NCBI RefSeq assembly: GCF_013364355.1
Contig: NZ_CP054931.1
Coordinates: 4,462,501 to 4,519,894, forward strand
Direction: 5' to 3'
DNA: 57,394 bases
DNA from: Stenotrophomonas sp. NA06056
Lineage (GTDB): Bacteria; Pseudomonadota; Gammaproteobacteria; Xanthomonadales; Xanthomonadaceae
Translations under genes and position numbers: made by a program
The notes under the pieces: generated by a model
Databases searched by the model: none
Seen by the model: only the letters and a program-made list of their open reading frames with translations
Told to the model about the DNA's origin: nothing
Shown: in pieces, positions 50,634 to 56,502 of the stretch
Layout of the letters: every line of letters starts with the position of its first letter
Position numbering within the stretch: position 1 is the stretch's first letter

Positions 50634-51983
50634 TTACTTGCCGATGCAGAAACTGGAGAAAATCCTTCCCAGCAGGTCATCCGCACTCATCTGCCCGGTG
50701 ATCTCGCCAAGTGCATCGTGGGCCAGTCTCAGCTCCTCGGCGGCCAGTTCCAGATGTTCATGCACCAGCTCTCCATCCGCGCGCTGCGCATGTTCCTGCG
50801 CGCGCTCGATGGCATCCACATGGCGGGTGCGCGCGGAGAACTCGCCGTCCACCTGCTCGCCCGCACCAGCCGAGGCAATCGAACGCAGCCGTGCATGCAG
50901 GTTGTCCAGTCCCGCGCCGGTCGCAGCGGAAACGAACACTCTGTCCGGGTCATCCACCACCGGCATCGCATCCAGCAGATCCGACTTGTTGTGGATGTAC
51001 ACCTTGTGCGGCACCGCCAGCACGGCATCACCAATGGCTGCTTCGCCCGCAATCGGGTCGCGCGCGTCCAGCACGATCAGCGCCAGGTCGGTGCGTTCGA
51101 TCTCCGCGCGCGCGCGACGCATGCCTTCGCGTTCGATGGCATCGCCACCGTCGCGCAGGCCGGCGGTGTCGACCAGGGTCAGCTCCAGCCCATCCAGGCG
51201 GATGGTTTCGCGCAGGGTGTCGCGGGTGGTGCCGGCGATGTCGGTGACGATGGCGCGCTCGCTGCCGGCCAGCGCGTTCAACAGCGAACTCTTGCCAGCA
51301 TTCGGTGGGCCGATCAGCACGGCGTGCAGGCCATCGCGCAGGCGACGGCCGCGCTCGGCATCACGACGCAGCAGGGCCAGGTCGCTACGCGCCTGTTCCA
51401 GTCCACGTCGCACCTGTCCACCGCCGAGTGTGTCCAGCGGCTCATCGGCGAAGTCGATCGCCGCTTCCACGTGGATGCGCAGCAGTACCAGCTGTTCGAC
51501 CACCGCATCGATGCGGCGCGAGAACACGCCATCCAGTGAGCGTCGTGCTGCGCGCGCGGCACGGTTGTCACCGGCCGCGATCAGATCGGCGATGGCTTCA
51601 GCCTGGGCCAGATCGAGCTTGCCGTTGAGAAACGCGCGCTCGCTGAACTCGCCCGGCCGTGCCTGCCGCGCGCCGAGTGCGATGCAGCGTGCGGCCAGTT
51701 GCTGCAGCAACACCGGACTGCCATGGCCCTGCAGCTCCACCACTTCTTCGCCGGTGAAGCTGTTCGGGGCCGGAAACCACAGCACGATGCCATCATCGAT
51801 CACCTCACCATCGGCATCACGCAGGCGCGCATAGTGCGCGTGGCGCGGGCGCAGCGTGGGCGCGCCCAGCGCGTTGGCAATCGCCGCAGCACACGGGCCG
51901 GACAGACGCAGCAGGCCGACACCGCCCGCGCCGGGGGCACTGGCGATGGCGACGATGGTGTCGGTGCGGGTCACATCGTTCAT
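50634..51983 (-). CDS. mnmE: tRNA modification GTPase MnmE
   Basis: MnmE with MnmG makes the xnm5s2U modification at the tRNA wobble position. The 449-residue protein has an N-terminal tetrahydrofolate-binding domain ([16 protein letters not shown]), a helical domain with inserted G domain carrying G1 GPPNAGKS (225-232), G3 DTAGLRDG and IHNKSDLLD (G4), and the terminal FCIGK with the essential Cys. It follows the caspase/deacetylase gene by only three bases. Confidence 0.96.
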
Positions 51984-51986
51984 GGC

Positions 51987-54656
51987 TCAGAGCTTCTCCA
52001 GCTGCGCGCGCGCCTGCGCTGCACCACTGCCCTGCGGCTGCAGCGCCAGGTAAGTGGTGTAGGCCTGCTTGGCCTTGGCCTTGTCGCCCGCGTTGAAGTA
52101 GGCATCGCCGAGGTTGAGATGGGCTACCGCGCGCGACGGATCGATCTTCAGTGTGTTCTCCAGCCAGCGCGCCGCTTCGGCGTAGCGTTGCTGGCGGTAG
52201 TAGACGAAGCCGAGGTTGTTGGCCGCCTGGGCGAAGTCCGGGCGCAACTTCAGCGCCTCGGCGAACTGCACGGCAGCTTCGTCGTAGCGCTTCTCGCGGT
52301 ACAGCTGCAGGCCACGGTCGTTGGCCTGCTGCGCGCGCTGGCGGTCCGAAGCCGGTGCGGCCGTCGGCACCACCAGCTTGGCCTTGCCGCCCTGCAGGTC
52401 GGCCACGGTCACGGGCGATTCACTGTTCTTGGCGTCCTGGGCAGCGTCGACCTTGTTGTTCAGTGCGATCGCATCGGGCGTCAGCTGCCGCGTATCGGCG
52501 TTGAGGTATTCCTGGCTGTCGGGCACCTGGAACACGAACTCACCGCCCTGCGAACCGGGCAGGCTGCCGAACGCTGGGGTCTGGTGCGAGACCGCCGACA
52601 CCGCCGGCGCCACATAGGCGGCCAGTTCGGTGCCGGTGATCAGGCCATCGCCATTGAGATCGCCCTTGCCAGCCAGCGCCTGCAGCAACACCCAGGTAAA
52701 TACCGAGTGGCCGTTCGGGCCGGCATCGGCCACCTGCTGGTCGGCGCCGCCGGCGGTCAGCATCTGTCGCGCGCTTCGGCGTGCGTTCTCGCGCAGGAAC
52801 GACGACGACGACGGGCCACCGCGGGTCAGGCCGAGGCCGCTGTAGCAGGCATCCATCACGAACATCACATGCTTTGCCTGCATGCTCTCGGCGATGTTCT
52901 GGATATCGGTCATCGCGATGGCATCGGTAGCGAATTCCTTCGGGTCCGAATCGACCGGGATGATGTAACCCAGGTCGCGGCCGGAGGCGAGCTGCCGAGT
53001 CGCGCCATGGCCGGCAAAGAACACGAACACGCGGTCGTTCTTTCCCGTGCGGTCATCGGCCAGGCGGTCGTGGAAGGCGGCCAGGATGTTGTTGCGGGTG
53101 GCCTGCTCGTTCTTCAGCACGATCACCTGCGAGGACGGAAACCCGAACTGCCCGGTCAGCGTATCGGCCACGGCCTGCGCATCGTGGCTGGCGTATTCCA
53201 GCTTCGGCCACTTGGCGTAGTTGTCGATGCCGACCATGATCGCCCACGACTTTTCATAGCCGGTGGTGACGGTGGCATCGCGGTCGCTGCCCTTGCGCGG
53301 TCGGGCAACGCTGAAGTCGCGGCCATTCCAGCCAGCGAACTGGTAGCCATCGGCGATCAGCCGATCCAGGATCTGCGGCAGCGCCTTCACGGCACGGTCG
53401 TGGATGTCGTGGAACAGGATGATGCCGCGCTGCTCCTTGTTCACCTGGTCGAGCACGCGCTGCACGATCGATTCCGGCACCGGATCAGCCCAGTCCATCG
53501 AATCGATGTTCCACATGATCGACTTCAGCCCCGCTTCGTTGAGCAGCTGCAGGCCTTCGGCGTTGCGCGCGCCGTATGGGAAGCGGAACAGTGGTGCACG
53601 CTTGCTGTCCACGTCCTTCAGCAGGGTGTCGGTATCCAGCACCTGCTGGCGCAGCGCATCGCCGGTGGTACGCGACAGCTGTGCATGGGTCAGGCTGTGG
53701 TTGCCGACGGCGTAGCCCTCTTCCATCAGGTTGCGGCTGATCTTCGCCATCGGCCCGAGACTGACCTTGCCGTCGGCCTCGACCTTGCCGAGGTTGCGGC
53801 CCACCTCGAAGAACACGCCCGGTACGTCGTAGCGCTTGAGGATGGCCACCACTTCATCGGTATAGGCCTTGTGCGGGCCATCGTCGAAGGTCAGCACCAC
53901 GGTCTTCGGTGGCAGGTCGCGGCCGAAGATCTCGCGGTCGCTGTCCTTCATCGACATCGGGTAGGGCTCGATCACACCGTAGTCGCGCAGGATCCCTTCA
54001 CGGCTGTAGTCCTTGTGCAGATGCGCGATGTAGTCGTCCCACTTTTCGCGCTTCAGCTCGATGGCACGGGTGCGCTCGAAGCGGCTGAAGATGCGGGTCA
54101 GTTCCTGGTTGTAGTTGCGCTCGATTTCATCCAGCGCCTCCAGGTCTTCGCCAATGCGCTGGTGCAGTTTCACCGCCGGCAGCGATGAATCGGCGCCGAT
54201 GCGTTCGTGCAGGTCGCGCAGCACTTCGCGGAAGGCCAGTCGGTCGGCATCAAACAGTTCCGGCGCCGATTCGATGTAATCCAGCACGGTGCCAAGCGTG
54301 GCGAAGCGCTGCGGGCTGGTGCCACGCAGCAGCGTATCGAACTGGGTGGCAATGGCGCTGCGCTGTTCCAGGCCATCGTGGAACAGCTGTTGGCCGATGC
54401 GGGTGGAAGTGGTGCGATCGGCCGCGGACTGCTGTTCCTCATCAGCCAGCAGCACGATGATCCGTCGATAGCCGTCGAGCTGCTTCTGCAATGCGCCCAG
54501 CAACGGGGCGGCGGCCGGGTCGGCACCAGCGGCAGCCTGTGCGCTCGGCTGGGTGACCGCCGCCGGTGCGTGCGCGTCCTTGTCGCCGCAGCCGGCCACG
54601 AGCAGGGTCAGCAACAGGCTGGGCAGGAACAGACGGAACGACGACGCACGCGGCAT
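51987..54656 (-). CDS. lipoprotein with NodB deacetylase, caspase (C14) and TPR domains
   Basis: The 889-residue protein has a lipobox LLVAGC (C23), a helical region (45-215), a NodB polysaccharide deacetylase domain (about 240-450) with TFDDGPH (D258, D259), NHSLTH (H320, H324) and RFPYG. A caspase-like domain follows (about 470-700) with MVGIDNYAKWP, the catalytic His in FFAGHGA (H550) and Cys in MDACYSG (C604). DLNGDGLITGTE (666-677) fits an EF-hand loop. About three TPR units end the protein (773-880). Both active sites look intact. Export as a lipoprotein would put the protease in the periplasm or on a membrane face. The start at 54656 was chosen because it directly precedes the signal sequence. 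Three bases before mnmE. Confidence 0.88.
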   Translation of the reverse strand: MPRASSFRLFLPSLLLTLLVAGCGDKDAHAPAAVTQPSAQAAAGADPAAAPLLGALQKQLDGYRRIIVLLADEEQQSAADRTTSTRIGQQLFHDGLEQRSAIATQFDTLLRGTSPQRFATLGTVLDYIESAPELFDADRLAFREVLRDLHERIGADSSLPAVKLHQRIGEDLEALDEIERNYNQELTRIFSRFERTRAIELKREKWDDYIAHLHKDYSREGILRDYGVIEPYPMSMKDSDREIFGRDLPPKTVVLTFDDGPHKAYTDEVVAILKRYDVPGVFFEVGRNLGKVEADGKVSLGPMAKISRNLMEEGYAVGNHSLTHAQLSRTTGDALRQQVLDTDTLLKDVDSKRAPLFRFPYGARNAEGLQLLNEAGLKSIMWNIDSMDWADPVPESIVQRVLDQVNKEQRGIILFHDIHDRAVKALPQILDRLIADGYQFAGWNGRDFSVARPRKGSDRDATVTTGYEKSWAIMVGIDNYAKWPKLEYASHDAQAVADTLTGQFGFPSSQVIVLKNEQATRNNILAAFHDRLADDRTGKNDRVFVFFAGHGATRQLASGRDLGYIIPVDSDPKEFATDAIAMTDIQNIAESMQAKHVMFVMDACYSGLGLTRGGPSSSSFLRENARRSARQMLTAGGADQQVADAGPNGHSVFTWVLLQALAGKGDLNGDGLITGTELAAYVAPAVSAVSHQTPAFGSLPGSQGGEFVFQVPDSQEYLNADTRQLTPDAIALNNKVDAAQDAKNSESPVTVADLQGGKAKLVVPTAAPASDRQRAQQANDRGLQLYREKRYDEAAVQFAEALKLRPDFAQAANNLGFVYYRQQRYAEAARWLENTLKIDPSRAVAHLNLGDAYFNAGDKAKAKQAYTTYLALQPQGSGAAQARAQLEKL

Positions 54657-54707
54657 GGCGGACTCGAACAGAGGGGAATGGTGTGCCGGCAATTCTAACG
54701 CCGCATG

Positions 54708-54731
54708 CGAAAAGCCCGCCTTGCGGCGGGC
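54708..54731 (-). terminator. Rho-independent terminator of rpmH-rnpA-yidC
   Basis: On the minus strand GCCCGCC GCAA GGCGGGC is followed by TTTTCG, 56 bp after the yidC stop. It separates the yidC transcript from the caspase-mnmE unit. Confidence 0.8.
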
Positions 54732-54747
54732 CTTTGCAGGGTCGATC

Positions 54748-54786: not shown

Positions 54787-56502
54787 TTACTTTTTCTTGG
54801 TCGGGGCGGTGGTTGCCGTCGCCGGAACCGGATCGCTGCCGTGGCGCTTGGTCATCCACCACTGCTGCAGCAGGCCCAGGCCACCGTTGACCACCCAGTA
54901 CAGGACCAGGCCGGACGGCATGAAGGCCATCATGACGCCGAACACCAGCGGCATGAACTGCATCATCTTCTGCTGCATCGGGTCCATGCCCGGTGCCGGC
55001 GTCAGCTTCTGGGTGAACCACATCACCGCCACGTTGATGACCGGCAGGATGAAGTACGGGTCGCGGGCGGTCAGGTCCTGGATCCAGCCGAACCAGGGCG
55101 CCTGGCGCAGTTCGACCGATTCCACCAGCACCCAGTACAGGGCGAAGAAGATCGGCATCTGGATGAGGATCGGCAGGCAGCCGCCCATCGGATTGATCTT
55201 TTCCTTCTTGTACAGCTCCATCATCGCGGTCTGGAACTTCTGGCGGTCATCGCCATAGCGTTCCTTCAACTGCGCGATGCGCGGCTGGAAGCGACGCATC
55301 TTGGCGCCACTCTTGTACTGCGTCGCCGACAGCGGGTAGAGCACGATCTTCAGCAGCACCACCAGGCCGACGATGGCCCAGCCCCAGTTGCCCACCAGCT
55401 TGTGGACCTGGTTGAGCACCCAGAACAGGCCCTGGCCGATCACCGCCATCATCGAGAAGCGGCTGTAGTCGACCACACGGTCCAGGCCCGGCACGTCTTC
55501 CTTGGCGATCAGGTTGACCAGCTTCGGGCCGACCCACAGGCGGGCCTCGGTGCTGGTGGACTGGCCCGGGGCCACGGTGAAGGCCGGACCACGCGCTTCG
55601 ATCAGGTCACGACCGGCCACCTGCGACAGCACGTAGTGGGCGGTCTGGTCCTTCTGCGGGATCCAGGCGGTGAAGAAGTGGTGCTGCAGCATCGCCAGCC
55701 AGCCGCCGGTGATGTTCTGGTTCAGCGCGCCATCTTCCAGGTAATCCTTGAACGCACGACGCTGGTACTTCTTGTCGTTGTCGTACCAGGTGGCACCGTT
55801 GAAGCTGAACGAGTCCGGATTGGTCATGCTCCGCGACAGGATCGTCGGGGTGCGGTCCAGGGTGCGGTACACGTAGCCGTTCCACGGCGCGGCGCCAGCA
55901 TTGCTGACTTCGTCCTTGAAGCGGATCGCGTACTCGTTGCGGCCCACGATCAGGGTGCGCTTGATGGTCACGCCGTTGTCGGCGGTCCACACGAACGGGA
56001 CCTGCAGCTCGTTCTGGCCATCGGCCAGCACGAAGTCGCGGGTATCGCCGACCAGCTTGAAGCCATCGGCACCCGGCACCGGGGTGTTCTTGTCTTCGCT
56101 CGCCCAGCCGCTGATCGCGCTGTACGGATGTGCGGGATCTTCAGTCAGCAGGCGTACCGGCGGGCTACCCTCGTCCTTGCTCTGCGGGAACTGCAGCAGT
56201 TCGGCATCGAGCACGCGGCCACCATCGAGCACCAGGCGCAGCACGTCGGTGGTGATGGTCACGCGCTGTGCGGACGGGGTGGCGCTGGCCTGGGCCTGTA
56301 CAGCGGCCTGGCCCGTGGCACCGGGAACCTGCGCGCTGGGGATGCTGCCCGGGGTTGCACCCGGAACGCTCTGTGCGGCGGCCGGGGCCGAGCTGGTCGT
56401 CGGCGCCGGGATCGGGGCGGACTTCTCACGGCTCCACTCCATCCACAGCAGCACGGCCACCATCAGCCAGGCAAAGATCAGGAAAACACGGGTCTGGTTC
56501 AT
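54787..56502 (-). CDS. yidC: membrane protein insertase YidC
   Basis: The 571-residue insertase has an N-terminal membrane segment ([18 protein letters not shown]), a Pro/Ala-rich linker, a large periplasmic beta domain (about 70-340) and the conserved C-terminal core with five membrane segments ([73 protein letters not shown]), ending in a basic KKK. Its start shares one base with the rnpA stop (TGATG). Confidence 0.96.

Follow-up and report, generated by a model that had tools for sequence, protein, structure and literature searches.

A NodB-caspase-TPR protein of Stenotrophomonas with a predicted lipoprotein anchor, a member of the Xanthomonas-type metacaspase family

Gene and domain architecture

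The window, the whole stretch of 57,394 nucleotides from Stenotrophomonas sp. NA06056 that was analyzed, carries a gene whose 889-residue product joins a NodB-type deacetylase, a caspase and tetratricopeptide repeats (TPRs) behind a predicted lipoprotein signal. The minus strand from 51987 to 54656 is a single open frame of 889 residues with an ATG start at 54656, and the plus-strand reading of the same interval runs into an internal stop. The coordinates given by a sequence-only reading were right, but the coding strand is the minus strand. An 829-residue mechanical open frame antisense to the gene (51699-54188, plus strand) is probably a high-GC artefact. The gene and its parts are as follows.

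51987..54656, minus strand: NodB-caspase-TPR lipoprotein gene, 889 residues, the 'Xanthomonas-type metacaspase' (translation, Pfam, motifs, alignment)
54588..54656, minus strand: predicted signal peptide with lipobox LVAGC, whose Cys at residue 23 is expected to carry the lipid and precedes G-D (motif, alignment)
53919..54527, minus strand: N-terminal all-helical domain, residues 44-246
53313..53918, minus strand: NodB/CE4 deacetylase domain, residues 247-448 (Pfam, motifs, structure alignment, alignment of relatives)
53253..53312, minus strand: variable linker between NodB and caspase, residues 449-468 (alignment; predicted local distance difference test, pLDDT, <50 in the model at 452-464)
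52521..53252, minus strand: caspase (C14) with p20 and p10 parts, residues 469-712, including H550, C604 and the probable pocket acids D492 and D602 (Pfam, motifs, alignments of structures and relatives)
52626..52661, minus strand: EF-hand-like loop DLNGDGLITGTE, residues 666-677 (alignment of relatives; EF-hand loop consensus)
51990..52349, minus strand: TPR array, residues 770-889, modelled as seven helices (Pfam, model, structure alignment)

Pfam places PF01522 at residues 247-378 (E 5e-26, 91.5 bits, cut-off 23.1), PF00656 at residues 470-666 (E 1.5e-21, 77.6 bits, cut-off 21.4) and TPR_2 towards the C-terminus (E 7.7e-17, 60.4 bits, cut-off 27), in the order PF01522, PF00656, TPR along one chain. 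Chance is ruled out for these three matches. Other TPR models also match, part of them below their cut-offs, and none of the 25 NCBIfam families listed, out of 36, reached its cut-off, with PdaB, PgdA and NodB at the top. The single chain of lipobox, NodB, caspase and TPRs described in the sequence-only reading is thus borne out by the open frame and Pfam, and its motif calls (D258/D259, H320, H324, H550, C604 and the lipobox at C23) were exact. A fourth piece that it lacked is the conserved helical domain at about residues 44-246, which no Pfam family covers convincingly and for which no convincing PDB match was found; modelled alone, it forms a helical bundle with a pLDDT of 81 and a predicted template modelling score (pTM) of 0.77.

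Relatives and selection

Relatives were sought by scanning one genome per species, and 80 of 93 confirmed loci were kept, mostly from Stenotrophomonas, Xanthomonas and Pseudoxanthomonas. Their alignment has 76 rows, namely the window and 75 of the 80 loci, and omits one locus cut by a contig end (L031) and four Xanthomonas loci that do not form one intact frame (L060, L072, L078 and L080). These four, together with a genome of the family sample that has an internal stop (G092), are either pseudogenes or sequencing errors. In whole-genome presence searches (threshold E <1e-100), the protein was found in 75 of the 91 genomes of the genus (72/86 of good quality), in 24 of the 198 genomes of a family sample and in three of the 369 genomes of a class sample, all three from the genus itself. 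It is therefore common within its genus, scattered through the family and rare across the class. A search of the architecture among relatives, as had been proposed, shows that it recurs in Xanthomonadaceae loci and beyond, with full-length copies in Betaproteobacteria.

That separate genes had been joined by a frameshift or an assembly error, which the sequence-only reading had named as what would undo it, is not borne out, and neither is an artefactual fusion. The 4/80 loci without a single intact frame indicate that some records do contain broken copies or errors, but none of the 75 genus matches has an internal stop. Joined genes are ruled out by these relatives and by the full-length betaproteobacterial copies, making an artefact vanishingly improbable.

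In both enzymes, every catalytic residue tested is the same in 76/76 rows, so that the loss of catalytic residues in orthologues, which would have spoken against a working protease, did not appear. Mean Nei-Gojobori ratios of nonsynonymous to synonymous rates (dN/dS) between the window and L001-L013 (S. maltophilia and close species) point to purifying selection, with 0.008 in the caspase part, 0.016 in the NodB part, 0.058 in the TPRs, 0.062 in the N-terminal domain, 0.159 in residues 1-50 and 0.181 in the second linker. Against nine other Stenotrophomonas loci all ratios were higher (0.065-0.148 in the folded parts), the caspase again lying below NodB. The strong constraint on the caspase and NodB parts suggests that both enzymes work.

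Active sites of the two enzymes

The NodB domain has all five CE4 motifs (TFDDGP, H-x3-H, RxPY, DxxDW and LxH), as TFDDGPH at 256 (D258, D259), GNHSLTH at 318 (H320, H324), RFPYG at 358, DSMDW at 385 and ILFHD at 413 (H416). In the caspase domain, the motifs FAGHG at 547 and DACYSG at 602 supply the dyad of H550 and C604, and a p10-like part follows, with structure alignments to MALT1 and metacaspases extending to about residue 712. The dyad, D492 and D602 are invariant in 76/76 rows. D492 and D602 align with the acids of the metacaspase S1 pocket, and their invariance predicts cleavage after Arg or Lys.

The p10 part contains the EF-hand-like loop, in which D666, N668, D670 and E677 are identical in 76/76 rows. 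For comparison, other caspases were drawn from the class, where 321 genomes include 59 with PF00656; the best places gave 30 loci (L091-L120), which are among the best-scoring rather than a random draw, and a loose dyad pattern allowed 28 of them to be read (a stricter one, 14/30). The loop pattern occurs in 75/76 family rows versus 0/28 of these other caspases.

Between the two conserved enzymes lies a linker that is poorly conserved across the rows and of low model confidence, an arrangement consistent with a self-maturing enzyme whose caspase cuts the Lys/Arg-containing stretch 449-468 and so releases or activates the deacetylase part. Lys or Arg occurs within residues 449-470 in 74/76 rows; composition alone predicts 70.3/76, however, so this count is next to no evidence. 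Two rows have no basic residue there, and no conserved cleavage motif was seen among the 18 linkers listed. Some metacaspases do self-process, according to the part of PMC5756287 consulted, and overall we judge self-maturation rather unlikely.

Predicted export and the question of cell death

The N-terminus has the n-region, h-region and Cys-ending lipobox of a bacterial lipoprotein, and the call follows the general lipobox rule. A Cys stands in the lipobox column in 67/76 rows, 63 of which fit a loose lipobox pattern, the other four reading PAGC, LATC, LQGC and LQGC. In E. coli, Gly or Ser directly after the lipidated Cys favours the outer membrane; these residues occupy this position in 61/67 rows, so outer-membrane sorting is the favoured prediction. 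The nine rows that lack the Cys are all from outside Xanthomonadaceae; at their N-terminus, positive charges precede a hydrophobic segment (mean hydropathy 1.42-2.74 over 19 residues), by which they might be anchored in the membrane. After the lipobox column, the active-site Cys is the sole Cys in 73/76 rows, a figure with no background set counted beside it, and such a near-absence of other cysteines would fit an exported protein.

The sequence-only reading took caspase homologues of bacteria to be cytoplasmic as a rule, a premise that is not clearly correct, since a loose lipobox match occurs in six of the 21 other caspase proteins with a closed, readable 5' end (from L091-L120). Hydropathy reaches at least 1.6 in 19 of these 21, and is indecisive by itself because the cytoplasmic MnmE scores 1.76. 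Exported bacterial caspases may thus be under-described, and they may not be unusual in the class.

An older idea places the enzyme in the cell interior, as a cell-death executioner: it would be the 'caspase-3-like' enzyme known from Xanthomonas, would be trimmed from about 100 kDa to 55 kDa and would act on the contents of the cell. Passages of PMC3501461 use GI 88792532 to tie the family to cell death in X. campestris pv. glycines and discuss an observed 55 kDa against a predicted ~100 kDa, passages of PMC4006831 report DEVD-based caspase-3-like activity measured in X. campestris during death, and no PF00656 protein other than the 889-residue one was found in the source genome. The lipobox-column Cys and the few other cysteines nevertheless argue for export from the cytoplasm, the pocket-aligned acids predict cleavage after Arg or Lys and not DEVD, and a cut in the linker would yield about 49 and 47 kDa, not clearly 55. 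The words 'metacaspase' and 'deacetylase' are absent from PMC4006831, and no caspase gene is named in the 12 of 16 places consulted. With basic cleavage predicted, the reported DEVD-ase activity may stem from another enzyme. We consider a cell-death executioner improbable; the predicted export and lipid anchor make an envelope site probable instead of the cell interior that this idea assumes.

Gene position between yidC and mnmE

The gene lies between two genes that we take to be yidC and mnmE (trmE), with a 3-nt gap to the latter.

54787..56502, minus strand: yidC, upstream neighbour
50634..51983, minus strand: mnmE (trmE), downstream neighbour
54710..54735, minus strand: GC-rich hairpin with T-run after yidC, common to a congener's empty site
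54692..54697, minus strand: TAGAAT, -10-like, common to a congener's empty site

Both names agree with the neighbours given in the passages of PMC3501461 on this family. The order yidC-gene-mnmE is found in 62 of the 80 loci, and gene-mnmE in three more at contig ends, where the DNA ends before yidC. In all, the fetched DNA includes mnmE for 66/80 loci; the other 14/80 have neither neighbour and carry the labels Roseateles, Paucibacter, Pelomonas, Scleromatobacter, Undibacterium, Duganella, Uliginosibacterium, Fluviicoccus, a betaproteobacterium and two bins labelled Azonexus.

Three observations concern single loci. In S. koreensis (L051:2253-8598; 1/80 loci), the gene follows mnmE in the order yidC-mnmE-gene. 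A contig labelled Bacillus subtilis SK7B5 (L043) has a Stenotrophomonas-like yidC-gene-mnmE locus (gene 89% identical, mnmE and yidC 80%) and is very likely a contaminated assembly. The copies in the Azonexus bins (L033, L035) are 79-82% identical and lie beside genes other than yidC and mnmE; both fall within the Xanthomonadaceae clade in a tree of 37 rows (the window and 36 loci), a placement suggestive of transfer or of an error in binning.

Five genomes chosen as lacking the protein all have yidC, with mnmE within about 0.4 kb, and the query protein gives just weak single-domain matches at this site. One of them, an empty-site congener (L083), has yidC 94% and mnmE 95% identical to the window, and its 104-nt yidC-mnmE gap aligns with the 130-nt yidC-gene gap of the window, including the hairpin and TAGAAT, neither of which is called by a consensus scan; the alignment is poorer for a second empty-site congener (L084). 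The leader ahead of the gene is therefore shared with the empty site, and the gene occupies the space from there to the start of mnmE. Its presence or absence here is clean, and the empty state is either a loss or the older state.

That the gene is cleanly present or absent at a single locus, along with a match to the PADLOC 'caspase' model (residues 469-636, E 3.9e-20), could fit an envelope sensor for defence or antagonism, in which damage by phage entry, a predator or a rival would release the caspase and the cell would be killed or sealed. The PADLOC match, however, covers only the shared domain, strong conservation is unlike arms-race evolution, and plasmid and phage collections gave no match at the limits used. 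The immediate neighbours in Xanthomonadaceae are housekeeping genes, the wider surroundings not having been searched for defence genes. We hold this explanation to be very improbable.

Proposed function

The explanation that we favour, and regard as somewhat likely, is an envelope-anchored deacetylase of glycan, perhaps peptidoglycan, combined with a basic-specific and perhaps calcium-gated protease. The gene and mnmE probably form a two-gene unit in which the gene comes first, and its product is probably exported through Sec and fixed to the envelope by lipid on C23, with an N-terminal membrane segment probably serving as the anchor in most relatives outside Xanthomonadaceae. All domains of the anchored protein would then face the periplasm. 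There, the metal-dependent NodB/CE4 domain would remove N-acetyl groups from a glycan containing N-acetylglucosamine, most likely peptidoglycan, and the caspase domain would cleave after Arg or Lys, in envelope proteins close by or in its own chain. The EF-hand-like loop in the p10 part may confer calcium gating, and the TPRs and N-terminal helical domain may dock a partner or substrate. The sequence directly shows the architecture, the lipobox, the conserved active sites and loop, the alignment of the pocket acids, the purifying selection and the position of the gene; export with a periplasmic orientation, co-transcription, the glycan used, the basic cleavage preference, calcium gating and any coupling of the two enzymes are predictions.

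Several results weigh against this explanation. Pfam calls no EF-hand in the 889-residue protein, and the calcium acids of T. brucei-type metacaspases are only partly kept, the second Asp of 'DD' being Ala. Likeness to peptidoglycan deacetylases does not settle which glycan is used, and the ten annotated flanking proteins outside Xanthomonadaceae give no consistent partner. The full-length model has a mean pLDDT of 72 and a pTM of 0.37, so that the domains are modelled and their mutual arrangement is not. As MnmE reaches a hydropathy of 1.76 on a similar measure, the anchor of the nine Cys-less rows is weakly supported; hydropathy is a side support, and its weakening leaves the odds of the proposed mechanism unchanged. 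The strongest point is the published caspase-3-like activity in Xanthomonas death, if it comes from this gene: the DEVD-ase described in passages of PMC4006831 misfits a basic pocket, unless its source is a different enzyme.

A bolder version, which we put forward as possible but doubtful, is that an envelope-anchored, calcium-gated, Arg/Lys-specific caspase coupled to a peptidoglycan deacetylase forms a self-contained device for envelope repair or damage response. The family had been proposed to supply the bacterial caspase behind cell death in Xanthomonas, and if this version is true, that much-cited caspase is a misassigned envelope enzyme.

Apart from this bolder version, the export evidence, the pocket acids and the few cysteines argue for an enzyme that acts on both glycan and protein in the envelope. 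The old cell-death claim thereby becomes directly testable, and a probable compartment and two probable kinds of chemistry can be named for the family.

Comparison with known systems

The window protein is a Stenotrophomonas member of a published family. In the passages of PMC3501461 (Asplund-Samuelsson et al. 2012) consulted, the 'Xanthomonas-type metacaspase' is defined by PF01522, PF00656 and one to three TPRs in 17 sequences from Xanthomonas, Xylella, Stenotrophomonas and two Acidobacteria, with the His-Cys dyad in all 17 and a two-gene operon with trmE, adjoined by yidC. The protein described here shares the domain order, the dyad and both neighbours. As the architecture has been in print since 2012 with Stenotrophomonas listed, the novelty implied by the sequence-only reading falls and the finding as titled is not new; what stands of that interpretation is the real single chain, the predicted export and anchor and the constrained active sites. 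In the main text of PMC3501461, 'periplasm', 'export' and 'calcium' are absent and the single 'lipoprotein' refers to operon neighbours; its Fig. 4 and Table S1 may show an N-terminal helix. Unlike that text, we note a lipoprotein signal, a possible link to calcium and betaproteobacterial members; the predicted export and lipid anchor, the pocket acids, the EF-hand-like loop, the N-terminal helical domain and the clean presence or absence at the locus are added here.

Each enzyme also resembles better-known proteins. The NodB domain has the five motifs of PgdA-kind CE4/NodB deacetylases (2c1g, Bd3279 5jp6, Bc1960 4l1g, 7fbw) and is 34-36% identical to 2c1g, 5jp6 and 7fbw over 181-193 structure-aligned residues, but is fused to a protease and TPRs and follows a different N-terminal domain. 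The caspase shares the p20 and p10 fold, His-Cys dyad and acidic pocket positions with the metacaspases Yca1 (4f6o), AtMCA4 and AtMCA9 and the paracaspase MALT1, and differs from them in its predicted export, its fusion to a deacetylase and the EF-hand-like loop in p10. The Amidase_2-metacaspase fusions described in passages of PMC3501461 likewise join a caspase to a cell-wall enzyme, with an amidase in place of the deacetylase and in other lineages.
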